A stretch of DNA of 64,000 bases, taken from positions 682,001 through 746,000 of the forward strand of contig NZ_JANDBD010000001.1 in NCBI RefSeq assembly GCF_024320865.1. The letters run 5' to 3'. Shown here piece by piece: positions 19,352-37,570 of this stretch (position 1 is its first letter; every line of letters starts with the position of its first letter). This DNA is from Mycolicibacterium arenosum (lineage in GTDB: Bacteria > Actinomycetota > Actinomycetes > Mycobacteriales > Mycobacteriaceae). Made by a program: the position numbers and the translations under genes. Below the pieces are notes generated by a model. The model saw only the letters and a program-made list of their open reading frames with translations. It was not told the origin of the DNA and ran no database searches.

Positions 19352-20326
19352 TCAGGGCGTGGGCTTCGGTGCGCGAGCTCCTCGCTCCGCGAGCCTGGCG
19401 GCAATGCCTTCGCGAGTCGGCCGGTCCGAATCGCTCAGGATCGCGTCCTTATATGCGTCTTCAACGGCGGCCCTAATGTCGGCGAACGATAGATCGTCAG
19501 CTTCTTTGAGCACGGCACTGGTCGTCTTCAGGCGCCAAGGGCGCATCAATCGATTGAGGAGTTCGCGACGCTGCTCGTCCGTTGGCTCGGGCAATTCCAG
19601 GACATCATCGAAACGGCGGAACAATGCGGTATCAAGAGCATGCCCTGTGTTGGTCGCCGCGATGAGCAGGCTGTCGCTGACATCGGCATCCAATAGCTGC
19701 AGGAATGTCGTGACGACGCGCTTTATCTCGCCAACATCGCTGTCATCGAGCCGCGTGCGTCCGAGCGCGTCGAATTCGTCGAACAGATAGACCCCTCGGA
19801 CACGGGTGGCTTCTGCGAACACCTCGGTGAGCGTGCCTGCGGTCTCCCCGAGGTACTTGCTGAACACCACCTCGAGTCTGACGCGGATCAAGGGCAGCTT
19901 GAGTTCCCCAGCCAGTGCCTGGGCCGTCATGGTCTTTCCGCATCCCGGCGGGCCGTGAAGAAGGAGACGCCGTCGAGGCCGGAGGCCGTGGTCCGCCAAC
20001 ACCTGCGCGCGCCGCTGTTCAACCACGTAGCGGTCGAGACTCTTTCGAGTCGCGGGGGAGAGCACCAGGTCAGAGAGTTTGGTGTCGCTGTAGCCAACGG
20101 CCAGTATTTGCTCGAGGTTCCGAGGTGCTCTCGCCAACGGTGTAGCACGTGCGGGCGAGTCGGTCCGTGTTCCCTCGATTCGCAACTCACGGAGCCGCTC
20201 CGCCAGTCGAGAATGGCCGGCCCGCGATTCGGCGGCAATTACCTGGTTAAGGAGGTTCGAGAAACGTCGATCGTCGCCCGTGTAGTGCGCCCTGACCAGC
20301 TCGGTCAGGTACTCGGCGTTCGTCAC
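19352..20326 (-). CDS. AAA family ATPase, IetA-like (paired with a subtilase)
   Basis: A 324-residue protein. A helical N-terminal region (1-75) is followed by a classical AAA module: Walker A GPPGCGKT at 125-132, Walker B VYLFDEFDALG near 179-189, sensor 1 LLIAATNTG, and an arginine-finger region ALFRRFDDVLELPEP. An AAA ATPase next to a subtilisin-like protease is the IetAS arrangement, described as a stability/incompatibility toxin-antitoxin module on Ti plasmids and later as an antiphage system. Here the ATPase gene is divergent from the XRE-protease pair, and its GTG start follows GAGGAGGTGAG. I infer that it restrains or directs the protease. Confidence 0.85.
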   Translation of the reverse strand: MTNAEYLTELVRAHYTGDDRRFSNLLNQVIAAESRAGHSRLAERLRELRIEGTRTDSPARATPLARAPRNLEQILAVGYSDTKLSDLVLSPATRKSLDRYVVEQRRAQVLADHGLRPRRRLLLHGPPGCGKTMTAQALAGELKLPLIRVRLEVVFSKYLGETAGTLTEVFAEATRVRGVYLFDEFDALGRTRLDDSDVGEIKRVVTTFLQLLDADVSDSLLIAATNTGHALDTALFRRFDDVLELPEPTDEQRRELLNRLMRPWRLKTTSAVLKEADDLSFADIRAAVEDAYKDAILSDSDRPTREGIAARLAERGARAPKPTP

Positions 20327-20397: not shown

Positions 20398-20721
20398 ATG
20401 CAGCAACGCGGCCGACCGGCACGCGCAACGAGGTCTCGCGAGGAGTTGGCTCGCGCGCTCGTCCGCACGCTCGGCGTCGCGCGGCAGGAGGCGGGCCTGA
20501 CTCGGCCTCGATTGGCGGAGTTGAGCGGAGTATCCGTGCACACGATCGCCAAGATCGAACAGTCAGCCGTCACGGATCCCGGCTTCACGGTCGTAGCCGC
20601 GCTTGCCGGCGTGCTGGGGATTTCGTTGGATCTACTCCACCGGCGCGCGAAGGACTCTGCATCATCGGCTGGCGTGTCACGCTCGACTGACTTCACGGCA
20701 GAGACAGAATCGGCACCGTGA
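20398..20721 (+). CDS. XRE family helix-turn-helix regulator
   Basis: A 107-residue protein. A basic N-terminus precedes a Cro/C1-type helix-turn-helix (ARQEAGLTRPRLAELSGVSVHTIAKIEQS, residues about 27-57), and the tail is short and acidic. Its stop overlaps the GTG of the downstream protease gene by 4 bp, so regulator and protease are coupled. It lies between the divergent ATPase and protease genes and probably represses both from the AT-rich repeat just upstream. A dedicated XRE gene inside an IetAS-like pair is a difference from the two-gene module as I know it. Confidence 0.83.
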   Translation: MQQRGRPARATRSREELARALVRTLGVARQEAGLTRPRLAELSGVSVHTIAKIEQSAVTDPGFTVVAALAGVLGISLDLLHRRAKDSASSAGVSRSTDFTAETESAP

Positions 20722-21167
20722 TCGTCAACGGACTCGCGCTTCTTCCGCTGAGGCAAGCTGAGATGGAGCCGTTTCAGAGCCGCCGCCAAGGGCGCACGCC
20801 CGACGCGCCGGAACGGAACCGCAACCAACACGCATCTCACGTTCTCGAGCAGATAGACCGCGTTTCCCAGCAGATATCGGCCGCGAAGGCTGAGTACCCG
20901 AGTGACGAGTCGGGAGCGATCGTCACGGCACTGGGCCCGAACCTCGATGACCCGAACGTGTCGCGCCAGATCATCACAGACAGTCCTGGCGGCGAGCTGC
21001 TGGTCAGCGATCAAGGGCGAGTTGTTTTTCGAGTTGAGGATGATCTCGCGGGCTTGCGCGCGAAGGCGACTGCCTACGCCAATGAGGATACGAAGGGGGA
21101 AATCCCAGATACAGCAATCTCATTGCCCGCATTAATGAGATCTCGATGGCAACGATCGCCGACTTGA
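20718..21167 (+). CDS. N-terminal part of the IetS-like protease, separated by a frameshift
   Basis: The GTG overlaps the XRE stop. The first 127 codons (LPLRQAEMEPFQSRRQGRT at the start, then LVSDQGRVVFRVEDDLAGLR and YANEDTKG) look like the leader region that precedes the catalytic domain in large S8-family proteases of this type. Beyond the G5 tract at 21095-21099 the frame yields about 22 unrelated residues and stops. Reading one base back at the G tract gives GGNPRYSNLIARINEIS, which runs without a break into the next open frame and makes a protein of about 804 residues. This is the start of one broken or slippage-dependent gene. Confidence 0.7.
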   Translation: MIVNGLALLPLRQAEMEPFQSRRQGRTPDAPERNRNQHASHVLEQIDRVSQQISAAKAEYPSDESGAIVTALGPNLDDPNVSRQIITDSPGGELLVSDQGRVVFRVEDDLAGLRAKATAYANEDTKGEIPDTAISLPALMRSRWQRSPT

Positions 21168-23131
21168 GCCTTGGTGAAATCTCGAACGACATCACGGACG
21201 AGGAACGCCTCTGGGTGGAGATCTGGACACGCGGCGGTACGGGCCTGAGCACGGCGGAACATGAGGCGATCGACGCTACAGTCGCCGCCTTCGCGGCGTT
21301 GACGACGGAGCCCGCCGGTCCGCTCCCAGTTTTCCGCGGTCCTGAACGCGACGTCCACGTGGTGCTTGCGAGCGGTGAGTCGCTGAAGGCGCTTCCAGTG
21401 CTGCTCCCGGATGCAGCCGAGGTACACATAGCTCCGACTGTGTTCCCGATCGTGATGGCCGAGGCGCAAGACGCAAGCGGTGAGGTCGCCGACGTGTATC
21501 CCCCGCCTCAGAATGCTGTCGCCGTGGCGATCCACGACAGCGGCATCGATGGAGCGCATCCATACGTAACGCCAGCACTCCTCGGTGCCGACAGCGTCGT
21601 ACCCGGAACAACCGGTGCAGCGGACGTCGATGGCCATGGAACCGCAATGGCTGGTGTCGCCGCATACTCGACGCTCGCAGATGGTGTAGCCGAAGGTGAG
21701 CTCTATCCAGACGCGTGGCTAGTGGGTGTGCGGCTGCTCGAGTCCGCCGCGGAGCCAGGAGGTGACCCCGAGCGAGGTGTGCTGTGGGCGGATCGCACCA
21801 CGGAGTCAGTGGAGGTCGCCGAGACGCTCGCCGGCGACCGACCCGTGGTTCACAACCTGAGCATTGGTGCAGACAACACCACCGTCGGCAGAAATGACCG
21901 CACCGCGTGGTCGGTCGCAGCCGACGTTCTCGGCTGGAATCACGGGGACGGACGGCTGCTAGTCGTCGCGGGCGGGAATGCCGAAACCATCACCGACCGA
22001 GACGATTACCCGTCCATCAATCTTGGACCCCCGTTTCTCCAACAACCCGCGCAGGCTTGGAATGTCGTCACTGTCGGTGGATACACAAGTCTCGACACCC
22101 TCACCGTTGAGGATGAGGGCTATGGATATCCGGCACCCTTGGCGGTCCGCGGACAACTGAGTCCCCACAGCCGGACAGCGGCTGCTGCGAACAGTCCGAT
22201 CAAGCCCGACATCGTGATGGAAGCGGGGAACACAGCGCCTGGGGGCGGGCTCGAGAATCCCGAAGCGCAGGGACTCAGCATTCTCACGCTGCAGTCGACT
22301 GCGGGCATCTCGGTCTCACTTCTCCGCCGCACCTGCAAAACCAGTCCGGCGGCGGCCGCGGCGTCGAACGCGCTCGCCCGCATCGCTTCACAGCACCAGA
22401 ATCTGACACCTGCGACGTGGCGAGCGCTCCTGGTGCACACGGCCCGCTGGCCCCAATCCGCCCTAGCGCAGCTCTCAGACAGGCGAGATCTCTTGCGCGC
22501 CTTCGGCTACGGTGTCCCGCGTCCGGAACGGGCAATGTCCAGCGACTCGAATCGGCCGATCATGATCTACGAGGGAAGCCTCATTCCCAGTAGGCATGAC
22601 GAGAAGAAGGCCGATCGACGTGCCGACTTCATCGAGTTGCCTTTTCCTGATGATGAGTTGGACGCCATCGGTGAATCCAATGTTGAGCTCACGGTTACGT
22701 TGTCGTACTTCGCCGAGCCGACAGACAACCTAACCCGCCGGTCCTATGTTGGCGGTCGCCTCCGCTGGGATCTGCAGGGTCCGACTGAGACCGCCGACAG
22801 CTTCCGCGCCCGTATCAATCGCGTCGTCCTTGACCAGGGCGTGCCCCCAGGGAGTGGTTCCTATGCCTGGGAGATACCTCCGGACGACAGATCCCGCGGG
22901 ACGTTGCAACACGATTACGCGACAGTGCCCGCCGCGAATATTGCAGGCACGCGATTGCTCGCCGTGTATCCGGTACTCGGGTGGTGGGAAGATTCGCAAA
23001 AGGGTTGGGAAAAGGTTCTTCCGTACTCAGTTGTTGTGAGTGTCGACCTCGGCGACGTCGACATCGACCTACACGGCATTCTCGCCGAAGCCCTCGTCCC
23101 CGCCACGGTTCCAGTGGAACTCGATGAATAG
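21146..23131 (+). CDS. S8 subtilisin-like serine protease, IetS-like (C-terminal catalytic part)
   Basis: A 661-codon frame carrying the subtilase catalytic domain: Asp131 in VAIHDSGIDG, His164 in DVDGHGTAMAG, and a candidate Ser400 in CKTSPAAAAAS. The usual Gly before the Thr-Ser of the GTS motif is Lys here, which is odd and could impair activity. The ATG at 21146 has no convincing ribosome binding site. The same frame stays open back to 21086, and the residues before it continue the upstream frame's protein, so I regard this as the distal part of one gene interrupted at the G5 tract. It is a putative effector protease of a defence or stability module and converges on the relaxase gene. Confidence 0.82.
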   Translation: MATIADLSLGEISNDITDEERLWVEIWTRGGTGLSTAEHEAIDATVAAFAALTTEPAGPLPVFRGPERDVHVVLASGESLKALPVLLPDAAEVHIAPTVFPIVMAEAQDASGEVADVYPPPQNAVAVAIHDSGIDGAHPYVTPALLGADSVVPGTTGAADVDGHGTAMAGVAAYSTLADGVAEGELYPDAWLVGVRLLESAAEPGGDPERGVLWADRTTESVEVAETLAGDRPVVHNLSIGADNTTVGRNDRTAWSVAADVLGWNHGDGRLLVVAGGNAETITDRDDYPSINLGPPFLQQPAQAWNVVTVGGYTSLDTLTVEDEGYGYPAPLAVRGQLSPHSRTAAAANSPIKPDIVMEAGNTAPGGGLENPEAQGLSILTLQSTAGISVSLLRRTCKTSPAAAAASNALARIASQHQNLTPATWRALLVHTARWPQSALAQLSDRRDLLRAFGYGVPRPERAMSSDSNRPIMIYEGSLIPSRHDEKKADRRADFIELPFPDDELDAIGESNVELTVTLSYFAEPTDNLTRRSYVGGRLRWDLQGPTETADSFRARINRVVLDQGVPPGSGSYAWEIPPDDRSRGTLQHDYATVPAANIAGTRLLAVYPVLGWWEDSQKGWEKVLPYSVVVSVDLGDVDIDLHGILAEALVPATVPVELDE

Positions 23132-23222: not shown

Positions 23223-26200
23223 TCAACGCTCCAATCCGAAGGTCGGACGTTGTGTCTGTCTTTCTGTCACGCGCCAGATGGACTCGTCGACTCGACTGCT
23301 AGACGCGTGCTGTCTACGCAGGCGTTCGCGTTCAGCGAGGCTTGAGGCCACGTCTGGCTCCAGCAGTCGGGAGTCGCAGCGCAGCGCCTGGTCGAGAACC
23401 GGGTCGAAGTCGGGTTGGTTGGCGCGCCTAGAGGGGGTCGCCGCATCGACGCTGAGCGTGACCGACCAGGGCAAGTCACCATGCAGGAGTCTGAGTAGTG
23501 GCCAAGACGGTGCGGGAGGCCAGCCGTGGTCGTCGCCATCAATTAAGACGAGTCGGGCGTGGCGCTCGGCGATATGTTCGGCGAGGTCGACGAGGACTGC
23601 CGGGTCTGCATGCGCGGCATGGTCGATGACAAGGGTTGTATTGGAGTCGATTTCGCGCTCTCGCCGAACGATCTGTCCATGGACATCGGCGAGCATGAGT
23701 GAGGTGCGCTCATGCCCACTGGGCACGGGCGGGTGCTCATCGGCGGCAGAGCACAACGTGATTGCGTGCCCCTGTTCGGCGGCCGAGGCGCGCAAGATGT
23801 CGAGGGCTTCGCGAGCGGTGTCGGAGTCGCCGGCGTGGACGGCAGTGACGGTGAAGCCACTGCGAGCGAGGTTGGTAATCCCGCGTGCCGTGAGTTCGGG
23901 GAGGTGTTGGACAGTATCGGGGTCGATGTGGATCGCGCGTTCGAAGCGGTAGTCGCCGGCGGCGCGCAGCATGGCAAGTTCAGTGTGCAGCTCGTCGATG
24001 TGATCGAGAATGTAATCAGTGGTGCGGGTTTCGCCTTCGGCAAAGGCTTTTGCGGTGGCAGATTCAGCGCGGTCGAGTTCAATGACGAGTTGGTCGCGGT
24101 GTGCGCGCGCCGCGGTGACTGCGGCGAGGTCGTCGGCGATGGCCCGCTTGCGGGCGGCTTCGACCGTCTCGTCGGTGACGATCCGGTCGGCGCCTCCCGC
24201 GGCGTCGGCGCGTTGGGTCATCACCTCGGCAAGTTCGTGGTGGAACCGTTGTGCCGGTGAATGATCGGGTATCGCGAGGGTGGCGAGTTTGACGGCGGCT
24301 CGGGCAGATTCGATGTCGAGCGCGTCCATGTGCGCGTCGGCCTCAGCCAGCGTGAGCTGGTCCTGCGTGTAGCGCAGGTAGTCGAGGGCGTGTTGGTAGT
24401 CGGTCTCGGCGTCGGCCCAGCGGGCGAGGACGTCCTGGACGGCGATTGCGTAGGGCCGGTCGGCAGCCGCACGTTCCCGTAGTTCCCGTAGCTGTTCAGC
24501 GGCGGCGCGGACAGCCGGGCCGTCGTTGCGGCGAACGCGGTCCTGTAGTTCGCGGAGGTGTTCGGTGGCGAGGTGTTTGGCTTCGCGTAACGCCCTGACG
24601 TCCGCCACCACCTCGTTGAGGGGGCGGGGTGCCGGTCGTTCGGTGAGGAGCTCGTCGAAGGAGAGCACGAAATCCACTGCGCCGTCGTCGAAGAGATCCG
24701 GTGGGAGATCCTCGATGTCCGTCGGCGGGATGAGGTGCCCGCCGTGACCGAGTCCGAGCATCTCGAGCAGGACGTCATCGGGCGGCACCGTGGCCAGTTG
24801 GTGCGGGTCGGGCACCCAATGTAGCAAGACTTCTTCTTCGTCGATGTCAACGGGGATGTCGGCGTCTAGGCACGCCGGAATGTCGTTGTGGTCGTAGGGG
24901 TTCGGGTTGGCGAACAGGTCGATCGAATAGGTGAGCAAGCGGGCGCACTGGTCGGGCCGGATGGTGTCGTCGTGGTCGCGGAGGTGCTCGTGCGCCAGCT
25001 GCAGCAGTTCGATCGGGGTCCAGCGTTCGGGGTCGGCGGTGTCGATCGCGACGACGAGACCGCCGAACGCGGGGTCGGCGGTGATGGTTTCGGCTGTCGC
25101 CGAGCCGAAGACGCGGTGCAGGTCCGGTAGCCAGTCGGGCCGCAGGTAGTCGGTGCGGGTGTCGAGGGTGGCGGGGTGGAGTCGTCCGGACAGGCGCCAC
25201 CAGAGGGCGGCGCCGGGCATCTGGTCGGGCAGTGGTCCGTCGGCGGCGGCGTCGGCGAGGAGTTGTCGGACGTCGACGTCAGTGCGCGCGACCTCGGCCA
25301 AACGGCTGGCGAGTTGCGGCCAGTAGGGGTCGCGCCGGATGCGGGGATCGAGCCGGTCCAGATAGTGGAAGCGACGATGATCGGTTGCGGTGCAGCCGAT
25401 TTCACGGGTGGCCAGGTCCGCCAGCAGGTTCTGGGCGCGGCGATCGCGAGTGGCGTACTGCTCGGGCCCGGTGAGTCGGGTGTCAGGGTCGGGTACATCG
25501 TGGGCGGCGCGGAACACCGCGATCTCCGCCCTAACCCCCGCATTCGCGGTGACGAGAGGGCGGGCCCAGCGGGGCGCGGTGGCGGCATCCCAACCGGCGG
25601 CGGTATGCCGGATCTGCTCGGCGAGTGTGGTGACGAGGTCGCGGCGCGCGTGCAGGTAGTCGGCCCAGTCGGTGCTGTCGACGAGCGCCTGGGGGAGGGG
25701 TGGCAGCCAGCGCAGCGGTCCGGCATCGCGGGTGTCGGCGCCGGGTTCCAGGCGGTAATCGAGGACGGCGGCGGGGTCGGCGACGTTGGCGAGATCGCCC
25801 TGTGCGGCAGCGGCTTCCAATCGCCGGATGGGGTCGTGGCCGGCGATGGCGAGCAGCGCCAGGTGCAGGCGCAGGGTCGGCCATCCGCCCGCGGCAGTCA
25901 GATTCGGATGGATGGTGTCAGCGGCGGTATCGATCGCCGCCATGGAGGCAGCGCCGAGGTGGTGTTCGGCCAGTGCGCCGATGGCGTGGACGTACATCCG
26001 GGATGCGTGCCCGAGGCGTTGGAACGGGTCTTCGGCGGTTCGTTGTTCGGTGGTCGCCGAGACCGCGGCGCCGTCGCGGGCGAGGACGCGTTGCAGGACG
26101 TCGAGGGCGGTGTCGGGGTGGGTGGCTTTGGGGGTGAGGACGCGGTGGGCGTCGGTCTCGGCGGTCGGCAGGTAGACGTGGTTCTCGTCGGTGGCGCGTG

Positions 26201-29105
26201 TCATGGCGGTGTAGAGCTGTTGGCGGGTCAGCCGATCCGACCCGACGACGTGGCAGCTTCCGGTCGTGGTCTTGGAACCGATGGTCATGCCCTGGGAGGC
26301 GTCGATCGTCGACGCGTACCCGAGCGTCGTGTAGGCCCGGACGTACCAGGCGGGCAGCGTCGTCTTCTGGCCGGTGTCGAGGCGCGCGACCGTCAGTCCG
26401 CCGTCGCGGGTGACCTTGTCGACACGCCAGCGGTAGCCGTTGCGGACGAAGTCTGTGCCCCCCAGGCGCAGGGTCCGCTTGTTGCGGCGGGTCGCCACTA
26501 CGTCACCCACCGACGCACGCAACCCGTCGGCCAACTCGGCTTCGCGGAGATCCGCGGGCCGAATCTGCTTGCCCTCTGGAACCATTCGCTGAAGGCGGTC
26601 GAGGCGGGCGCGTTCGTTGAGTTGGGTGACGATGTCGTTGGTGGGGGCGAGCATTGCACTGTCGTAGCCGCGGTTCCGGTCGTCGGCCCAGGCTCGGTAG
26701 ACCTGGTGGATGACGGTGTCGTCGGAGCCGACGTGGATGCGGTGCTGGTCGGCGTAGAACGCTAACCCCGCCGGATCCCCCTCCCGCAACGCCAACCCGG
26801 CGTGCGCTTCGGTGCGAGACCGGAACCGGATCACCTCGGTCAAGGTCAGCGCGCCGTAGGTGGCGTCGATATCGCGCAACACACCGCCCGCCGAGACGGA
26901 GGCCAGCTGCTGGTCGTCGCCGATCAACCTGACGCTGGCGCCGCGGGCGAGAGCGGTGGTGATGACGGCGTCGAGCTGTCGCGTGCCGGCCTTGCCTGCC
27001 TCGTCGAGGATGATCAGCGTGTTCTCGTTGATGGCGTCGAACCACTGTCGCGCCGGATCTTCGTGGGCGTTTGGATGGCTTTGTAGCCAGATGAACTTGT
27101 CGACGGTGTCGCACTCGGAACCGATGTCCTCGCGCAGCAGCTGGGCTTGATTCGCACCGGGGGACAGGCCGAGAACGGTGCCACCGGACTCCACCCACGC
27201 ACGTGCGAGCGCGGCCATCGCGGTCGTCTTCCCCGACCCGGCGGGAGCGAGCGCGAGCTGAACCCGCGCACCGGAGCAGGCCATCTCGCGGACGACGGCG
27301 CGCTGGCCGGGGTTGAGTTCTGTTCCGCTGGTGGCCTTCAATCCGAGCAGCGCGAGGTTGACTGTCTCGTCGTCGATGCGGCGGCCGTCGCGTTGTCCGG
27401 CGGCGTGCAGGATGCGTGTCTCGGCGGCCAGGATCTCCGCACTGGTGAACAGGGCGGTGCCGTGCGTGGTGTAGACGCTGGCGCCGTCGCGGCGACGCAG
27501 CACCGCCGGCTCACCCAATTCGGCGTCTGTGATCCGGGCGTGTGCACGGCTCAACGGTTCGGCAAGAGCGGCCGCGGTAATGGCCTCCGCGAGATGCGCA
27601 TCGGACGCCATTCCGACAGTGCGGATGCGGCGTTGGGATTCCGCGTAGACGTGCGCGAACTGCCAACTCGACCGTGATGAGGAGACGGTGTCGACGACGA
27701 GGCGGGCCTGTTCCGCCACCCATCCCGGCGTCACCGTCACCGTCTGCTGAGGCACACACGCGTGGACGCCGACGAGCACCGTCGACAGGGCGTACTGGGA
27801 GCCGAGGTGTTCGATGGCCTGGGTGCGCCACTGCTGCCGCTGCTCGGCCAACGACCTGGGTTCGTGCTTGGCGACGCGGGTTTCCAGCGTCGCCTGCTGA
27901 TGAAGCGAGATGGCTTCGATGGTGGTGGGTTCGCGACCGTGATCGCTCTGAAACCGCTTCGCCAATTCGGTGTACCGGTCCCGAATCAACGCTCGTCGGG
28001 TGGAGAACATCTCGCACAGATCGGCGGGGATGCCGACGATCTCGCGCACCGGACGCTTGCCGCGTTCGGATGAGAGTCGTTCCTCGAAGACGACGCCGGC
28101 GAGCTGGGTGGCGTACGCCTCGAGGCGGGTGTTGTAGAACTCCGAGGCCGCGACCGTGGTCTTGAACAACGGCCGTCCGTCCAATGCGAGCCACCGCGGA
28201 ACACCGTCGGCGCCGAGGGCGCGGACCTTGTTGGAGACGGCGATGTGGGTGTGCAGATCGGGGTCTCCGGCGCGGCTGTCGCGGTGCACGAAGCGCGCGG
28301 CGATGAATCCTTCGGTGTCGAGTTGCGCTACTCCTTGGGCGCCGATGCGGGTGAAGGCGGCATTGTCCTGGAGGAACTCGAGGGTGTCGGCGACGGCCCG
28401 ATCGTGGCACTGCTCCAACGTCTTCGACAGCTCCAACGGCGCCAAAGCCCACAGCACCGAGAAGCTCTTCACGGGGCTGAACGTCAGGTCGTAGCCCGCG
28501 GTGGAGGTGGTCTGATCACGCGACTGGGTGGCGATGAACCCCGTCAGTTCCCGCTCATCCGACGGCACGCGCCCGTACTCCGAATGAAACATGTCCCGCG
28601 CGATGACAGTCCGAAGTCGAGCCCGTAGTGCGTCGTCGATAGGGGCGTTCCACGGGAGGCTCTGGCTGAGATTGTGGTCGCGGAACGCCACGGCCAACCG
28701 GCGCTGCAGTTCGGTGGACGCGTCGTTGATGAGGAACGGCCGACCCAGGTTCACCGCGGCGGTCGCGGCGCCTTTCCCGGCTCCGCGCAGGATCAGGTGT
28801 TCGGCGATACGACCGGCATTCGGGTGCAGTCCCAACCCGAACAGGGCGCGCATCTGGTCCTCGGTGACCTGCGATCCGCGGCCTACCCGCCAGAGTTCGG
28901 TCTCGAAGTCGGAGGTGAGTTCGCGGCCCGCCGGGGTGTGGAAGGCGTCGAGTCCGCGGCCGGTCCACTCGCCGGGTGACTCGCCCTTGTCGGAGTAGTA
29001 GTCGGCGAGCGTTGTGCGGCCGCGGTTTTCGTCGTCGTGCGCGGCGGTCTGCCGGACCAGATACACGTATCCGTCTCCGGCGGTGAGCTTGTGGATGCTC
29101 ATCAT
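23223..29105 (-). CDS. MobF family conjugative relaxase-helicase (TraA/TrwC-like)
   Basis: A 1960-residue protein. The N-terminal third is a TrwC relaxase: LTAGDGYVYLVRQ, the tyrosine pair in LADYYSDKGESPG (likely the nicking Tyr), and the three-histidine metal site in HRDSRAGDPDLHTHI. Then comes a RecD-like superfamily 1 helicase with Walker A LAPAGSGKTTAM, DEAG in LIILDEAGKAG, GDDQQL, ASTIDASQGMTIG and TAMTRATDENHVYL. The last 900 or so residues are a helical, charged extension without a domain I recognise. It nicks at oriT and unwinds the transferred strand. The gene is divergent from a small gene across a repeat-rich candidate oriT. No coupling ATPase is encoded nearby. Confidence 0.94.
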   Translation of the reverse strand: MMSIHKLTAGDGYVYLVRQTAAHDDENRGRTTLADYYSDKGESPGEWTGRGLDAFHTPAGRELTSDFETELWRVGRGSQVTEDQMRALFGLGLHPNAGRIAEHLILRGAGKGAATAAVNLGRPFLINDASTELQRRLAVAFRDHNLSQSLPWNAPIDDALRARLRTVIARDMFHSEYGRVPSDERELTGFIATQSRDQTTSTAGYDLTFSPVKSFSVLWALAPLELSKTLEQCHDRAVADTLEFLQDNAAFTRIGAQGVAQLDTEGFIAARFVHRDSRAGDPDLHTHIAVSNKVRALGADGVPRWLALDGRPLFKTTVAASEFYNTRLEAYATQLAGVVFEERLSSERGKRPVREIVGIPADLCEMFSTRRALIRDRYTELAKRFQSDHGREPTTIEAISLHQQATLETRVAKHEPRSLAEQRQQWRTQAIEHLGSQYALSTVLVGVHACVPQQTVTVTPGWVAEQARLVVDTVSSSRSSWQFAHVYAESQRRIRTVGMASDAHLAEAITAAALAEPLSRAHARITDAELGEPAVLRRRDGASVYTTHGTALFTSAEILAAETRILHAAGQRDGRRIDDETVNLALLGLKATSGTELNPGQRAVVREMACSGARVQLALAPAGSGKTTAMAALARAWVESGGTVLGLSPGANQAQLLREDIGSECDTVDKFIWLQSHPNAHEDPARQWFDAINENTLIILDEAGKAGTRQLDAVITTALARGASVRLIGDDQQLASVSAGGVLRDIDATYGALTLTEVIRFRSRTEAHAGLALREGDPAGLAFYADQHRIHVGSDDTVIHQVYRAWADDRNRGYDSAMLAPTNDIVTQLNERARLDRLQRMVPEGKQIRPADLREAELADGLRASVGDVVATRRNKRTLRLGGTDFVRNGYRWRVDKVTRDGGLTVARLDTGQKTTLPAWYVRAYTTLGYASTIDASQGMTIGSKTTTGSCHVVGSDRLTRQQLYTAMTRATDENHVYLPTAETDAHRVLTPKATHPDTALDVLQRVLARDGAAVSATTEQRTAEDPFQRLGHASRMYVHAIGALAEHHLGAASMAAIDTAADTIHPNLTAAGGWPTLRLHLALLAIAGHDPIRRLEAAAAQGDLANVADPAAVLDYRLEPGADTRDAGPLRWLPPLPQALVDSTDWADYLHARRDLVTTLAEQIRHTAAGWDAATAPRWARPLVTANAGVRAEIAVFRAAHDVPDPDTRLTGPEQYATRDRRAQNLLADLATREIGCTATDHRRFHYLDRLDPRIRRDPYWPQLASRLAEVARTDVDVRQLLADAAADGPLPDQMPGAALWWRLSGRLHPATLDTRTDYLRPDWLPDLHRVFGSATAETITADPAFGGLVVAIDTADPERWTPIELLQLAHEHLRDHDDTIRPDQCARLLTYSIDLFANPNPYDHNDIPACLDADIPVDIDEEEVLLHWVPDPHQLATVPPDDVLLEMLGLGHGGHLIPPTDIEDLPPDLFDDGAVDFVLSFDELLTERPAPRPLNEVVADVRALREAKHLATEHLRELQDRVRRNDGPAVRAAAEQLRELRERAAADRPYAIAVQDVLARWADAETDYQHALDYLRYTQDQLTLAEADAHMDALDIESARAAVKLATLAIPDHSPAQRFHHELAEVMTQRADAAGGADRIVTDETVEAARKRAIADDLAAVTAARAHRDQLVIELDRAESATAKAFAEGETRTTDYILDHIDELHTELAMLRAAGDYRFERAIHIDPDTVQHLPELTARGITNLARSGFTVTAVHAGDSDTAREALDILRASAAEQGHAITLCSAADEHPPVPSGHERTSLMLADVHGQIVRREREIDSNTTLVIDHAAHADPAVLVDLAEHIAERHARLVLIDGDDHGWPPAPSWPLLRLLHGDLPWSVTLSVDAATPSRRANQPDFDPVLDQALRCDSRLLEPDVASSLAERERLRRQHASSSRVDESIWRVTERQTQRPTFGLER

Positions 29106-29216: not shown

Positions 29217-29421
29217 TGGCCACGATCTACCGGCGTGCAAGAGGTGTGTGGTGCGCAAGCGGGGCCGGCGGGCCCGCGATGTGGGCAGGGGCCGAGGGGC
29301 GGAATCGGGACGACCGAGCGATCGGTGGTTGGTTCCAGGTTGACTCGGTCGACGGTGCCTGGGGCGGAGGAGCGTCGGAGTTGGCGTCGGGGCGTGGAAT
29401 GGCTGCGGGTTGGTTGTCGCC

Positions 29422-29454
29422 GCGCGCCGCCGCGCCGCAGGCGCGGCGGCGCGC
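29422..29454. other. Perfect 15-bp GC-only hairpin in the candidate oriT region
   Basis: Arms gcgcgccgccgcgcc (29422-29436) and its exact complement (29440-29454) enclose a 3-base loop, 47 bp before the small gene at 29502. There is no T-run. It could be an extruded cruciform used at oriT or a transcription barrier between divergent genes. Confidence 0.6.
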
Positions 29455-29501
29455 ACCCAAGGCCGGCGGAGCCGTGGGGTGATCGGCTTAGCATCGCCGG
29501 T

Positions 29502-29969
29502 ATGGACGGGACGACGAGTCGCAAGCAGGCGCGGGCGAGGGTGCTGGAGCGGCAGCGCGACGCGGCCGCGGCGCGAGAAGCACGGGAGCGGGCCAACATC
29601 GGCGATCTGACGGAGTTCACGGTGCAAGCCGCGCGGGCTGCCGAGGTTGACGGGTGGCTGGCGCACAGACTGGAGGCGCTGCACGCCGAGGCGGAGCGGC
29701 GCCGCGACACTCACCGCCTGGCGGCGGGGCTGGCGCTTCGGCGGATGCGGTTGCGCGGGGAGACGATTCCGGGTATCGCCGATGCGGCCGGTGTGTCTAT
29801 CGGTCGGGTGCGCGATTTCCTCAAGATGGCCGCACGATCCGACGCGGGCGATCAGCCCGCTGCGGCAGTGGCCTCAGCGCAGGTGCCGCCGCTGCCCACG
29901 CCGATGGACCAGATCGCTGATGGGCGTGCTGTTTCCGCGCGGGATGCGGCCGACCGGCAAGGAACGTAG
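29502..29969 (+). CDS. Small helical protein beside the relaxase, possible relaxosome accessory factor
   Basis: A 155-residue protein. The N-terminal half is highly charged and probably one long coiled coil (KQARARVLERQRDAAAARE and on). Residues about 85-115 resemble a helix-turn-helix (GETIPGIADAAGVSIGRVRDF). The ATG follows at the end of the repeat-rich intergenic region. Small DNA-binding proteins divergent from MobF relaxases often bind oriT, as TrwA does for TrwC, and that is the inferred role. No family was recognised by name. Confidence 0.6.
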   Translation: MDGTTSRKQARARVLERQRDAAAAREARERANIGDLTEFTVQAARAAEVDGWLAHRLEALHAEAERRRDTHRLAAGLALRRMRLRGETIPGIADAAGVSIGRVRDFLKMAARSDAGDQPAAAVASAQVPPLPTPMDQIADGRAVSARDAADRQGT

Positions 29970-30048: not shown

Positions 30049-30945
30049 TTACTGCCACGCGGTCCGGTCGGGATCCCATACCTGTGCGGAGGCGTCACCG
30101 GTCAGCACGGGGTCGGCGAATTCGATGACCGACTCGATGACTGGGTGCAACCGCGGTGGTAGATCATCTCGGGTGTGACGTCGTCGCCACTGTTCCCATT
30201 TCGGTTGAGACAGATCGGCGTAACCGTCGAGGACATCGGCGAGACTCGCGAGTGCGACAACGCGGTGCGCGGCGACCTCGCGGATCGCGTCGCGCAGGGT
30301 GGACCCCGACACGGAGTGACTGCGCGTGAGGGTCCAGATATCGCCGAAGTCCCGCCACCGTGTGTTGGCCGTGCCGCGTTGCACCGCGGTGACGATCTTC
30401 TCGGCGAGCACCATGTGCAGCGGGTAGCCCCGCAACTCGATCGGGTCACCATCGAGTAGTCGCGGCACGGAGACAATGTCCGGTCCGGGAATGATCGGAT
30501 CGCCGATGTTCACGTCGACGTGAAAGCGGAGACGCACCTTGCCGATCCGCGCGTCGACACTCACGCGGACACCCGAGTAGTCGTCCTCCTCGCGGATGAC
30601 TTCGGCAGTGGCGCCGGCGGTGCTGAACTGGACACCGTCATCGATCGGAAGTGCTGCCTCGCAAACGTTCACGATCTGAGAAAGGACCGACGACGGGGCG
30701 TTGCTGATGTTCTCCGCCGCGAGATCGACGTCGCGTGTGGGGCGTCGGTTGCCGAACGCGGCGAGCAGTACACCGCCTTTGAGGATGAAGTCGTCGCGGG
30801 CGTCGCTGGTGGCCAGGCGCGCCAGGAACCCCTCCAAGGCGTACAGGTCGAGCAGTTCCTGGGTGTTTCGCCCGCTCGCCTTGGCGCGTTTCTGGAGCTC
30901 GCGGTACGCCCGTTGGCCGGCGTCGTCGCGCGGACCGGCGTTCAC
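30049..30945 (-). CDS. AbiEii/AbiGii family nucleotidyltransferase toxin
   Basis: A 298-residue nucleotidyltransferase of the DUF1814/AbiEii type. The signature is FILKGGVLLAAFGNRRPTRD followed by VDL, with the GG and the Asp-x-Asp metal-binding residues, near residue 55-80. In type IV toxin-antitoxin systems such proteins modify target nucleic acids (tRNA 3' ends for the mycobacterial MenT relatives) and cause growth arrest or abortive infection. Its start overlaps the AbiEi stop by 4 bp, so antitoxin and toxin come from one transcript, antitoxin first. All key residues are present. Confidence 0.88.
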   Translation of the reverse strand: MNAGPRDDAGQRAYRELQKRAKASGRNTQELLDLYALEGFLARLATSDARDDFILKGGVLLAAFGNRRPTRDVDLAAENISNAPSSVLSQIVNVCEAALPIDDGVQFSTAGATAEVIREEDDYSGVRVSVDARIGKVRLRFHVDVNIGDPIIPGPDIVSVPRLLDGDPIELRGYPLHMVLAEKIVTAVQRGTANTRWRDFGDIWTLTRSHSVSGSTLRDAIREVAAHRVVALASLADVLDGYADLSQPKWEQWRRRHTRDDLPPRLHPVIESVIEFADPVLTGDASAQVWDPDRTAWQ

Positions 30946-31520
30946 AGCAGGATGCTCAGTGCCTGCTGCAGCGCGCGCTGCGCGTGGGGAAAGGACCGCG
31001 CCATCCGCAGGATCTCCGATGGTTGGCCGCCGTGGCGCAACCAGCGCTTCAGCGCGTCGTTCGCCTGGTCGACTCCTTCGTGGTGCTGGAGGCGGTAGGT
31101 GTCGATGATCGTTCGGGGTGCTGAGTAGAGCCCGATCGTCCGATCGCCATCGATGTCCAGTTCCTCGCGACCGATGTCGAACGTGTCGGTGGCGAAGCGG
31201 TGCCAGCTGACATGGGCGGTGACCTTCGGGGCCCAGTCGCCGCGGGGGATGGCGATGTCGATTGCGGCGGGGATGTCATCGGTGAGGTCGTGTCGGACGA
31301 GTGCTGATCGCAGCGCGATGGTGGCACGAGGTGCCGCGGAGGCGATCTCGACGAGTTCCTCATCGCCGTACCAGTCGCTCTTGCGGTAGAAGCCGCGCGC
31401 GATCGGCGTGATCCGCCCATCGAGTCGAAGGGTTTGCAGCTGCCGCTTGCTCATGTGTTCCAGCGCTTCGGCCGATCGAAACGTTGGCGGCAGACGGGAG
31501 AGGATGTCATCGCTATCCAT
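30942..31520 (-). CDS. AbiEi family antitoxin/transcriptional regulator
   Basis: A 192-residue protein. An N-terminal winged-helix-like domain (FRSAEALEHMSKRQLQTLRL, DGRITPIARGFYRKS) is followed by the DUF559/AbiEi C-terminal domain (SAPRTIIDTYRLQHHEGVDQ and ALKRWLRHGG). In AbiE modules this protein represses its own promoter and neutralises AbiEii without direct binding. The gene is directly upstream of, and overlaps, the nucleotidyltransferase. The promoter should lie in 31521-31644. Confidence 0.85.
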   Translation of the reverse strand: MDSDDILSRLPPTFRSAEALEHMSKRQLQTLRLDGRITPIARGFYRKSDWYGDEELVEIASAAPRATIALRSALVRHDLTDDIPAAIDIAIPRGDWAPKVTAHVSWHRFATDTFDIGREELDIDGDRTIGLYSAPRTIIDTYRLQHHEGVDQANDALKRWLRHGGQPSEILRMARSFPHAQRALQQALSILL

Positions 31521-33009: not shown

Positions 33010-33048
33010 CAAGACGACGACGAACCAACAGGGGAACGGGGATTGGTG

Positions 33049-34242
33049 ATGGCGAGCTCAAGGCAACAGCTGCCTCCGCAGATCAAGAAGGTCGAAGTAC
33101 TCGACCGCACGACGGGTAAAACCGTTGTGCGATATCAGGTTAGGGTCGATGCAGGCATCGATCGCGTGACGGGTACTCGCCGACAAGTCCGCCGACGATT
33201 CAAGACGGAGCGTGAGGCGCGCGAGGAGCTCGGCAAGGTCAGCGACCAGGCCGCTATGGAGACGTTCGTGCCGCGCAAAGCCGTCACCGTCGAAGACATG
33301 TGTGCGGACTGGCTTGCGTCGCTGCACCATGCTCGCGCCACCACGCTCAACGCCCTGACCTACGCTCTGGCACCGCTGCGCGAACGCCACGGCACGATGC
33401 CGGTACAGAAGCTGACCCGACCGGATCTCGACCGCCTGTTGAAGGACCTGCGCGATGGCGGCACCGTCACCGCCAAGGGGCATACTCGACGCAAGTGGTC
33501 GCCGCGGTCTCTGAACAAGGCGGTCGACGCGTGGCGCTCGATGCTGGACTACGGAGTCGAGCGTCGCGAGCTCGCGCACAATGTCGCGGCCGCGATCAAG
33601 AAGGCTCCGAAGGCGCACTCCGAGATGGCCACCTACACCCCCGACGAGATCGGCCGTGTGTTGCGCGCCGCCGACGACGATCGCAACGGCCACCTCTGGT
33701 ACCTGGCGCTGTCGGGGCTCCGGCGAGCAGAGATCGCCGGACTGCGTTGGAGTGACATTGATTTGGATGCCCGGACGCTCAGCATCGCCCGCAATCGGGT
33801 TCAGGCCGGGGCCGGCAACGTGGTCGAGAACGATCCGAAGACTCGGTCGTCGCGGCGCACGCTGCCCCTCGACGACGGGCTGGCCGCGGTGCTGCGTCGG
33901 GCCTCGGCCCGGTACGCGCAGGAGCGCCTCGCCCTCGGAGCTGGGCACTGCGATTCCGGCTACGTCGCCGTCAGCACGACCGGAGAGCCGTACACCCCCG
34001 ATGCCCTGACGCGGAAGTGGGGCTCGATCTGCAAGGCCGCGAAGGTGCCGCCGATCCGGCTGCACGACGCGCGCCACTCCTGCGGAACGGCGATGCATCT
34101 ACGAGGGGTCCCAGTGGCCGTCATAGCGAAGTGGCTCGGCCATGCGAACCCGTCGATCACAACGAGTTTGTACGTGCACAGCCAGGACGATGCGCTGAAG
34201 GCCGCCGCAGTGAGTTTGGGCGGAATCATTAAGTCAACATGA
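33049..34242 (+). CDS. Tyrosine recombinase/integrase of the element
   Basis: A 397-residue phage-type integrase. It has an N-terminal arm-binding domain (DRTTGKTVVRYQVRVDAG), a core-binding SAM-like domain from about residue 80 to 180, and the catalytic domain with ALSGLRRAEIAGLRW (first Arg), HDARHS (His339, Arg342), LGHANPSIT (His365) and the nucleophile Tyr375 in SLYVHS. All catalytic residues are present, so it should be active. It probably acts on tRNA-Arg(CCG), 3.3 kb to the right. In most such elements the int gene abuts the att site; here a STAND gene and a second int tail lie in between. Starts at 33046 (GTG) or 33049 (ATG) are both possible. Confidence 0.9.
   Translation: MASSRQQLPPQIKKVEVLDRTTGKTVVRYQVRVDAGIDRVTGTRRQVRRRFKTEREAREELGKVSDQAAMETFVPRKAVTVEDMCADWLASLHHARATTLNALTYALAPLRERHGTMPVQKLTRPDLDRLLKDLRDGGTVTAKGHTRRKWSPRSLNKAVDAWRSMLDYGVERRELAHNVAAAIKKAPKAHSEMATYTPDEIGRVLRAADDDRNGHLWYLALSGLRRAEIAGLRWSDIDLDARTLSIARNRVQAGAGNVVENDPKTRSSRRTLPLDDGLAAVLRRASARYAQERLALGAGHCDSGYVAVSTTGEPYTPDALTRKWGSICKAAKVPPIRLHDARHSCGTAMHLRGVPVAVIAKWLGHANPSITTSLYVHSQDDALKAAAVSLGGIIKST
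34114..34220 (+). repeat. Direct repeat copy 1: 3' end of the intact integrase gene
   Basis: These 107 bp recur at 37306-37412 with five mismatches that I can count (about 95 percent identity). The repeat covers the last catalytic region, including His365 and Tyr375. The two copies flank the STAND gene. Confidence 0.9.
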
Positions 34243-34437: not shown

Positions 34438-37209
34438 TCATGAGTTGTACATTGCTGCATATATTGCCTCGCCTCTTGTGCGGACGCGCTCGGCAGTGGT
34501 GGCGAGTCGGGCGGACTGCTCAACGGGGATTGCGATCAACTCCTCCAGAGCGCGCATGATGTGTCCGAGGCCGTGGGTAAGCGGGACACCGAGGTGCTCG
34601 TTTTCTAGCGGCATGGCGATGAGCTCCTCGATAAGCTGCAGAGCTGGATCGATTTGTCGTCGGTGGAGTGCGACGATCACTTCGACGCAGCTCACGGTGA
34701 CTTCGTCGTAGCTATTGGCGCTGTCCCTGAGGGTGGCGACCAACGAGTCGACGGAGTCGAGGTCACGTGCCTCGATAAGGTCCCAGATTCTGTCCATCAC
34801 GACGTTGGGCCTTACCTCGTCGCTCGGATCCCGAGTGACCATCTGATCGATAGCCTTGATCGCCTTGTCGATGATCGCGTCATTTCGGTACTCGGGACGT
34901 TTGTTGAGGAAAGAACGCAACGGGTAGGCGCGCTCGAATGCAGTGCTGGCGGCGCTCCCGCCGAACGACTCACAGCTGAGCAGCGTGCGCACCGCGAGCA
35001 CGGCAAAGGGCGCCACAGTGGCGGGTGGCATGCCGGCGATGCTGAGGTCGATCACGATTCCTGACACCGCGACTAGGGCCATCACATCGCGCAGCCGATC
35101 CCGCGGCATCTCAGCCAAGTCGAGCACGACGCCGCGGGCGAGGTTCACAGAGGAATTGAAGTCGCCGCGGCTCATGCGACAAGTCGCGAGTTCGAGCTGC
35201 AGCATCAGCCTGGTGAACTGGAACATCTTCACCTCATCCGGATGGTGGAACTCGAACCGCGAGACCTTCACGATCACAGACAACAACGCGTCGGCGTGTG
35301 CTGCCAACTGGTCCACGGCGAAGAACGCATTGCGCCTGCGCATTTCGGTTAGCCAGCCGAGCAGGGGATGCAACATCATGATGATCTGCTCACTGAGGCG
35401 TGCCGGTGGGATGTCCCGAAGGAAGATGTCACGCAGCACCTCGTGCACGAGGGGATGGATCCGGATGGTCTCGGCCGCTTCATTGTTCGCGTTGAAGTTG
35501 TCGACGAGGACGACTCTTTGAGCGAGAGACTGCGTGCGAAAGATGCTGATGTACCGGCGTTGTACGGCTGGCTCCGCCTCGGCGGGCATCGGTAGTTCGT
35601 GAAGTCGCAGGACGATGGACTCGGGAAACGCAGCAATAAGAAAGTTCAGCGGGATCTTGTCGGGCGCGATCAGCGCAGCGCGGTAGAGAAGGGCTTGAGC
35701 GATCCGCATCTCATCTGGCGAGTTAGAACCGAGTCCATCGCCGAGATGGCCGACGGCGTGCCGGATCGCCGCGTAGAGCGTGGCATTGCTGACTCCAGGA
35801 GGCACGGCGCCCTCGTCCTCAAGGGCATCCAATTCGGCGAAGTACGCCGCGGACAGTTCGGCGACTGTTCCGTCGGCGTTGCCGAAGTACGTTCCCGCCA
35901 TGCTCACCGCCAGCGGGATCAACCCGAGGCGATTGACCACATCTCGCACTCCCGGATGCTCGGTGGACGGTTCCAAACCGGCGTGGGCGGCAAAGCACGC
36001 CATCGCCTCGTCGGCGTTGAACGTCGGGATCTTGATCTTCGGAACCGTTGGCCACCAAGCTGTTTCGTTCGGGGTGGTGATAACGATATTGCCGTTCCCG
36101 TACTTGGGGATTAGGGACTCGATTGCCTGGCGGGACGGTGCGCCGTCGAAAACGATCAGCCACGGGCCGCGATTCCGGGCGAGAGCGTCGTGAAAGGCAC
36201 TGGTCGGGTCTGCCTTATGGCCGAGACGGGTTCTGGTCAGCTCCTCTGCGCAGCGCCGCGCATCGGCCATCATCGTGTCGTTTTCGCGGCAATCGATCCA
36301 GCATATGAATTCGAAGGCGTTGTAGTGCAGATGGCAGAAGTCTGCCGCAAGCGCCGACTTCCCGTAGCCGGTGGTCCCGGTCAGGATCGCCACGCGGGGC
36401 TGCCGGCCGTCCGCGTTGCCCGACAATGCGTCGGCGATCTCATCGAGCTGCTTGACGCGCGGAACGGTTGAGCTAAAGGTCGGGACGCCGCCGATCGGAA
36501 CTCCCCAGTCGAAGCTGCCCAACGCGTGTGCAACCGCGGCGTCGGGTGTCCTCAGGAGCTCGAGGAGGTCGGATGCGGGGAATCGTTCAGTCGTTGTGCC
36601 GGCCGCTGACCGGAAGATGTGGTGTAGCAGGACAATCGACACCATGCGGGAAGTGGCTTTGCCCTGGCTGAGCACCCGGTCTGCACGGGCCGAGCGGACG
36701 TGCCCGGCGACTGAAGCGGCGAGATCGTCCGCCGACCTGGCGTCCACCAGAATGAACCGGTTGGATCGTGGTGTGTCGAGATCCGGTTCCTGATAGGCGA
36801 ATCGGTCGAGCGAGGACCCGTCGGCCTCGGTGAGTATGCACCTTTCGGCCAGTCCTGCAGACAACGGTCTGTTGGTGAGCAGATGGTTGACACCATCCGA
36901 GGCGGCGCCCAAGCGTCGCATCACGTCACCGGCCTCACCGGGGTGCAGCTTGTTGTTCAACGGGTCGCTTGAGCCCTTGACTTGGATGCGCTCGACGACG
37001 ACGCCGCGGTACTCGACCGCGAAGTCCACGATGTCTGGATCCTCGCCGCTGCCGCTCGTGGCGAGCGGGGTGGGCTCGATTAGCAGCGCTACCTCGTCGG
37101 CGTCCACGTCCGCGGCGTGGAGGTAATTCAGGAAGTAGTCGGCGGTGGCCAGGTATTGGTACAGGAACCCGTACGCCGAACTTCGTCCGCCAGTCATCGG
37201 CCGCTCCAT
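34438..37209 (-). CDS. Nuclease-STAND NTPase, Avs-like antiphage protein candidate
   Basis: A 923-residue protein in three parts. Residues 1-150 resemble a Cap4/DUF4297-type restriction-fold nuclease: GGRSSAYGFLYQY near residue 8, acidic residues in LIEP and EDPDIVDF (about 45-62), and the QVK of ERIQVKGSS (76-78). Residues 250-450 are a STAND NTPase: Walker A GTTGYGKS (278-285), Walker B LIVFD (351-355), sensor-like NIVITT (374-379), and GLIPLAV (429-435) as the GLPLA motif of NB-ARC domains. Residues 450-923 are helical, TPR-like, and probably the sensor. This layout is that of antiviral STAND proteins: target recognition, oligomerisation, then DNA cleavage. It is a lone gene between two integrase tails. 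Function is inferred; domain motifs are direct. Confidence 0.8.
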   Translation of the reverse strand: MERPMTGGRSSAYGFLYQYLATADYFLNYLHAADVDADEVALLIEPTPLATSGSGEDPDIVDFAVEYRGVVVERIQVKGSSDPLNNKLHPGEAGDVMRRLGAASDGVNHLLTNRPLSAGLAERCILTEADGSSLDRFAYQEPDLDTPRSNRFILVDARSADDLAASVAGHVRSARADRVLSQGKATSRMVSIVLLHHIFRSAAGTTTERFPASDLLELLRTPDAAVAHALGSFDWGVPIGGVPTFSSTVPRVKQLDEIADALSGNADGRQPRVAILTGTTGYGKSALAADFCHLHYNAFEFICWIDCRENDTMMADARRCAEELTRTRLGHKADPTSAFHDALARNRGPWLIVFDGAPSRQAIESLIPKYGNGNIVITTPNETAWWPTVPKIKIPTFNADEAMACFAAHAGLEPSTEHPGVRDVVNRLGLIPLAVSMAGTYFGNADGTVAELSAAYFAELDALEDEGAVPPGVSNATLYAAIRHAVGHLGDGLGSNSPDEMRIAQALLYRAALIAPDKIPLNFLIAAFPESIVLRLHELPMPAEAEPAVQRRYISIFRTQSLAQRVVLVDNFNANNEAAETIRIHPLVHEVLRDIFLRDIPPARLSEQIIMMLHPLLGWLTEMRRRNAFFAVDQLAAHADALLSVIVKVSRFEFHHPDEVKMFQFTRLMLQLELATCRMSRGDFNSSVNLARGVVLDLAEMPRDRLRDVMALVAVSGIVIDLSIAGMPPATVAPFAVLAVRTLLSCESFGGSAASTAFERAYPLRSFLNKRPEYRNDAIIDKAIKAIDQMVTRDPSDEVRPNVVMDRIWDLIEARDLDSVDSLVATLRDSANSYDEVTVSCVEVIVALHRRQIDPALQLIEELIAMPLENEHLGVPLTHGLGHIMRALEELIAIPVEQSARLATTAERVRTRGEAIYAAMYNS

Positions 37210-37287: not shown

Positions 37288-37439
37288 GCATTTACGGGGG
37301 TGCCCGTGGCCGACATAGCGAAGTGACTCGGCCACGCGAACCCGTCGATCACAACGAGTTTGTACGTGCACAGCCAGGACGATGCGCTGAAGGCCGCCGC
37401 GGTCAGTTTGGGGGAAGTTGTGTCACCCTCGTGTCACTG
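37288..37439 (+). pseudogene. Remnant of a second integrase gene (3' end only)
   Basis: The sequence matches the 3' end of the integrase at 33049-34242 (107 bp at about 95 percent identity, then decaying leftward). One change turns the Trp362 codon into TGA, and a one-base gap lies just upstream. The tail differs after VSLG and ends SPSCH before a stop. It adjoins tRNA-Arg, where the integrase of a tRNA-inserted element normally ends, so this is probably the original junction of an earlier or ancestral element. Confidence 0.85.
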
Positions 37440-37497
37440 AGGCCGTTTTCGAGCCTGAGTGGCCCGGCGAGAAATACATAACGCCTGGTAGAAAGGG

Positions 37498-37570
37498 TGC
37501 CCCCGGCAGGATTCGAACCTGCGGCCTTCTGCTCCGGAGGCAGACGCTCTATCCCCTGAGCTACGGGGGC
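37498..37570 (-). tRNA. tRNA-Arg (anticodon CCG)
   Basis: A 73-base tRNA with acceptor stem gcccccg/cgggggc, discriminator A, a T-arm with ggttcgaatcc, and anticodon stem tctgc/gcaga holding the loop ctccgga, so the anticodon is CCG. CCA is not encoded. It precedes argS on the opposite strand, an arrangement also known in M. tuberculosis. Its 3' end faces the mobile element and is the likely attachment site. Confidence 0.96.

Follow-up and report, generated by a model that had tools for sequence, protein, structure and literature searches.

A gene on the reverse strand of a Mycolicibacterium arenosum contig (34438..37197, 919 aa) probably encodes a one-protein antiphage alarm, in which a putative sensor, an NB-ARC-like STAND switch and a predicted Cap4-type nuclease are joined in a single chain. 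The gene lies in the 64,000-nucleotide stretch analysed here (NZ_JANDBD010000001.1, positions 682,001 to 746,000; hereafter the window), to which feature coordinates refer. The sequence itself shows a single open reading frame (ORF), conserved motifs, purifying selection, patchy occurrence among genomes, a location flanked by an integrase gene and a tRNA gene, and the company of defence genes; the fold and class of the nuclease, the NB-ARC-like switch and the TPR-like fold of the sensor are predictions from models and profiles. An initial annotation of this DNA had proposed a single-gene, Avs-type antiphage system, combining a restriction-like nuclease, a full STAND/NB-ARC NTPase and a long helical C-terminus.

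The ORF occupies positions 34438-37209 on the minus strand, with 923 codons counted from its first ATG. Translation likely starts at the fifth of these residues, at position 37197, because that ATG is preceded, at a distance of six bases, by a GGAG box and the database form of the protein (P0001) has 919 residues; the box is common to the window and both relatives compared. Residue numbers below follow the 919 aa form. The ratio of nonsynonymous to synonymous substitution rates (dN/dS) of the gene is 0.15 against the relative at locus L018 (84% identity) and 0.14 against that at L019 (74% identity), and segment values against the same two relatives range from 0.10 to 0.24 across the nuclease, NTPase and C-terminal parts. 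These values indicate purifying selection, so that the gene is a maintained one and no chance ORF. Together with the family search and the 66-row alignment described below, they bear out the single gene and the motifs quoted in the initial annotation as real.

A search of 5.8 billion proteins, in which the 7995 candidates with the most shared words were scored, yielded 75 matches, 66 of which (P0001-P0066) align as one family; 55 of these 66 rows are longer than 850 residues. The remaining nine matches align to 22-40% of the query, and their Pfam domains are NB-ARC, AAA_16 or TPR-type. Twelve family members are named by organism, namely nine mycobacteria, one Nocardia and two metagenome bins (Acetobacteraceae and Actinomycetia). 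Of 198 genomes sampled from the genus, 7 carry a full-length member, the window's own genome counted, and 12 have a match of any kind; a set of 396 genomes spread across the phylum gave no full-length match other than that in the own genome. A plasmid of Mycolicibacterium arabiense encodes a relative that is 35% identical over 76% of the length, and no relative was found among phage records at E 1e-5. As judged from these matches, the family is largely mycobacterial and patchily distributed. One genome (G018) holds a full-length copy as well as fragments of a further family member on a different contig (C8; L013 and L015); one of these fragments contains an internal TGA.

The N-terminal domain (residues 1-222; 36532..37197, minus strand, as are all parts of the gene) is a predicted Cap4-like PD-(D/E)XK nuclease. 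The AlphaFold2 model gives it a nuclease fold that matches solved Cap4, DUF4297 and LmuA domains (VIA). In the family alignment, with counts taken over the rows that have a residue at the position, the predicted acidic active-site residue E41 (37075..37077) and the predicted metal-binding D58 (37024..37026) are each present in 63/63 rows and align to the E and D of Cap4-type enzymes, while D55 is Asp in 61/63 rows and Glu in the other two. The (E/Q)xK motif Q72-V73-K74 (36976..36984) is nearly invariant (65/65, 64/65 and 65/65 rows, respectively), and a profile-profile comparison places E41, D58, Q72 and K74 in register with the Cap4-type active site (PF14130 hits; hhalign, 92%). Neither the window protein nor any of 27 family members scanned with Pfam matched PF14130 (Cap4_nuclease) at its curated score, and the window genome was also unmatched; the domain is therefore a relative outside the curated Cap4_nuclease family, and model and profiles predict it to be of the known Cap4/LmuA/HerA-DUF4297 nuclease class.

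Residues 236-595 (35413..36492) form a NB-ARC/nSTAND_NTPase5-like STAND NTPase with helical and winged-helix parts, according to Pfam and NCBIfam scans and fold matches. The Walker A motif GTTGYGKS (residues 274-281; 36355..36378) keeps G274, T276, G277, G279, K280 and S281 in 66/66 rows each, as do D351 of the Walker B motif LIVFD (residues 347-351; 36145..36159) and P428-L429 of the GLPL-type motif GLIPLAV (residues 425-431; 35905..35925). H581-P582 (35452..35457), with His in 63/63 rows, stands at what we take to be an MHD-like position. The residue after D351 is Gly in 64/66 rows, with no second acid, and ATP hydrolysis may for this reason be slow, with nucleotide exchange perhaps doing the switching. 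The module is a predicted P-loop NTPase in the NB-ARC-type arrangement of STAND proteins, winged helix included, and its predicted fold resembles those of Apaf-1 and plant NB-ARC. The window protein itself scores below the Pfam cut-offs for nSTAND_NTPase5 (27.5 bits, cut-off 34), NB-ARC (15.6, cut-off 23.5) and NACHT (20, cut-off 26.7), and among the 27 members these models are reached at E 0.01 by 22, 15 and 16, respectively. Residues 251-594 give 136 bits with NCBIfam FxSxx_TPR (cut-off 300), and among solved chains only those of AfsR match clearly by sequence, in the NTPase part (E 1.9e-5).

The C-terminal domain (residues 598-919; 34441..35406) is the putative sensor. Residues 598-917 are entirely helical in the model, with ten-residue means of the predicted local distance difference test (pLDDT) of 79-97, and the predicted fold is TPR-like (VIA). 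A sequence search with this domain matched only family members and one other protein. The description of a sensor unlike anything named thus stands for the sequence, but not for the fold, which is predicted to be of a known type.

PADLOC includes Avs models. The window protein had no match in PADLOC 2.0.0, and a scan against NCBIfam up to E 1 retrieved no Avs model. Nor did the own genome match NCBIfam Avs1b, Avs2, Avs3a or Avs4 (among control genomes, Avs3a was found in none and each of the others in one, below the cut-off), and no solved Avs chain is in the list of sequence matches for the window protein. These NCBIfam models are also 1931, 1317, 2083 and 1579 positions long, respectively, compared to only 919 residues here. 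The proposed Avs-type membership is consequently not supported. The broader antiviral-STAND architecture of a nuclease, a STAND NTPase and a helical C-terminus in one gene is upheld, part by part, by the domains described above.

The Cap4 (CBASS), HerA-DUF4297, Lamassu LmuA and Hachiman nucleases are paired with SAVED domains, HerA or further partners. They share the predicted N-terminal nuclease fold, and PF14130 hits also the E...D...QxK motif; in the window protein, in contrast, one chain carries both nuclease and STAND switch. PADLOC was also run on 27 family members, of which five reach LmuA and one, weakly, a helical-REase model. The TPR proteins of FxSxx-COOH systems (NF040586) have a related NTPase/winged-helix module, corresponding to residues 251-594, but the hits so named (P0070-P0074) list no Pfam nuclease domain, unlike the predicted nuclease here. 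Closer in plan are bNACHT25 and bNACHT32 (clade 6), which, as described in PMC12169576, have an N-terminal PD-(D/E)XK DNase, a central STAND NTPase of the NACHT type and a helical C-terminal domain, protect the bacteria expressing them, with DNA being degraded upon infection, and lose defence with the D48A change. The comparison is by description rather than by sequence, and the switch of the window protein differs in its predicted Apaf-1/plant NB-ARC-like fold and its sub-cut-off NACHT score. Avs5, according to PMC12931631, is likewise a STAND protein that detects a phage protein and carries TPR-like repeats at its C-terminus, but its effector is a Sir2 NADase rather than a nuclease and its ATPase is nSTAND3. 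We therefore regard the window protein as of a known kind (nuclease-STAND-sensor), in which the new element is the union, within one largely mycobacterial family, of a Cap4-type nuclease and an NB-ARC-like switch; neither the family nor its sensor was found in the catalogues searched.

By analogy with bNACHT25/32, HerA-DUF4297 and Avs1-4, the last of which kill the cell via nuclease effectors once they recognise a phage protein such as the terminase or the portal (PMC12931631), we infer the following course. The protein would rest closed before infection, until a phage protein bound by the helical C-terminus triggered it. The NB-ARC-like module would then oligomerise with nucleotide bound and bring the Cap4-type domains together, and the assembled nucleases would cut host and phage DNA, halting the infected cell (abortive infection).

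The STAND gene sits between a tyrosine integrase gene (33043..34242, plus strand; Pfam) and tRNA-Arg(ccg) (37496..37570, minus strand), the presumed integration site from its position and the junctions in relatives. The 3' end of the integrase gene recurs as a remnant (37288..37416, plus strand), which aligns to the intact gene with two one-base gaps, on the tRNA side of the STAND gene, and a direct repeat of this end (34105-34220 and 37297-37412; 116 bases, 94% identical) thus flanks the gene. Among seven genomes of the genus picked for a matching integrase or tail plus tRNA, the distance from integrase or remnant to tRNA is 65-80 bases in five and 738-746 in two, compared to 3253 in the window. 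Given this gap and the second tail, the gene sits in an insert between two integrase tails, which probably arose by recombination between related elements. GC content is not decisive, with 0.623 for the gene and 0.638 and 0.679 for the left and right flanks.

The mycobacterial host and the company of other defence genes also hold up: the same stretch encodes an AbiEi/AbiEii pair (30049..31520, minus strand; PADLOC 151 and 278 bits), an IetA-like ATPase (19352-20326, minus strand; 240 bits) and an IetS-like subtilase (21146-23131, plus strand; 135 bits). The latter two are on opposite strands with a helix-turn-helix gene and a small ORF between them. A MobF/TrwC relaxase-helicase gene (23223..29105, minus strand; Pfam, NCBIfam) is also present. 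The ORFs at 29235-29969, beside the relaxase, and 20718-21167, beside the IetS-like gene, gave no hits to Pfam, PHROGs or PADLOC within the limits applied.

Such surroundings suggest a different role, in which the protein would protect the integrative element, or the host, from plasmids and rival elements rather than chiefly from phages, with a conjugation or replication protein as trigger. The integrase-tRNA position, the nearby relaxase and the plasmid-borne relative all fit it. The neighbours of the relatives differ, and in a scan of twenty chosen ORFs, transposase, transposition or integrase genes lay near four of seven other loci (L018, L019, L021 and L022); none was found at L016, L020 and L023, where one, one and two ORFs, respectively, were scanned. 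We nonetheless consider this role unlikely, since the closest tested architectures (Avs1-4, bNACHT25/32 and HerA-DUF4297) respond to phage, and antiphage genes too usually sit on mobile DNA, according to PMC12169576. Near the L019 member and transposase genes is a 928 aa protein with an N-terminal DUF4365 (L019:5467-8253), possibly a further defence gene. Two members also have 310 aa ORFs nearby (L019:4327-5259 and L020:12903-13835) that are 75% identical over 213 aa, the L020 copy without a Pfam match at 1e-5.

Less probable still is a STAND regulator of the AfsR or FxSxx-TPR kind, whose N-terminal domain would bind DNA without cutting it. The AfsR and FxSxx_TPR matches to the NTPase point this way, but E41, D58, Q72 and K74 are invariant in the rows covering them, a constraint that DNA binding alone would not require; the domain matches Cap4-type nucleases, and no conserved neighbour was found as a possible target. 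That the gene is decaying cargo, a functionless relic in this strain, is very improbable despite the broken integrase tail beside it and the fragments in G018, given the full-length ORFs in the genus, the kept motifs, and dN/dS that is low overall and at most 0.24 in each segment.

A bolder form of the antiphage reading, which we hold only tentatively and consider rather doubtful, is that the family constitutes a mycobacteria-centred class of one-gene bacterial NLRs, with a Cap4-fold nuclease, an NB-ARC of the Apaf-1/plant-resistosome type, its own TPR-like sensor and a mycobacteriophage trigger unused by known Avs and bNACHT proteins. If protective, the window protein would give mycobacteria a one-gene nuclease NLR overlooked by at least one defence catalogue (PADLOC 2.0.0), and ordinary escaper genetics could reveal the phage target of its sensor. 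It would also connect Cap4-type nucleases with an NB-ARC switch like those in the immune receptors of animals and plants, and could partly account for the phage resistance of environmental mycobacteria.
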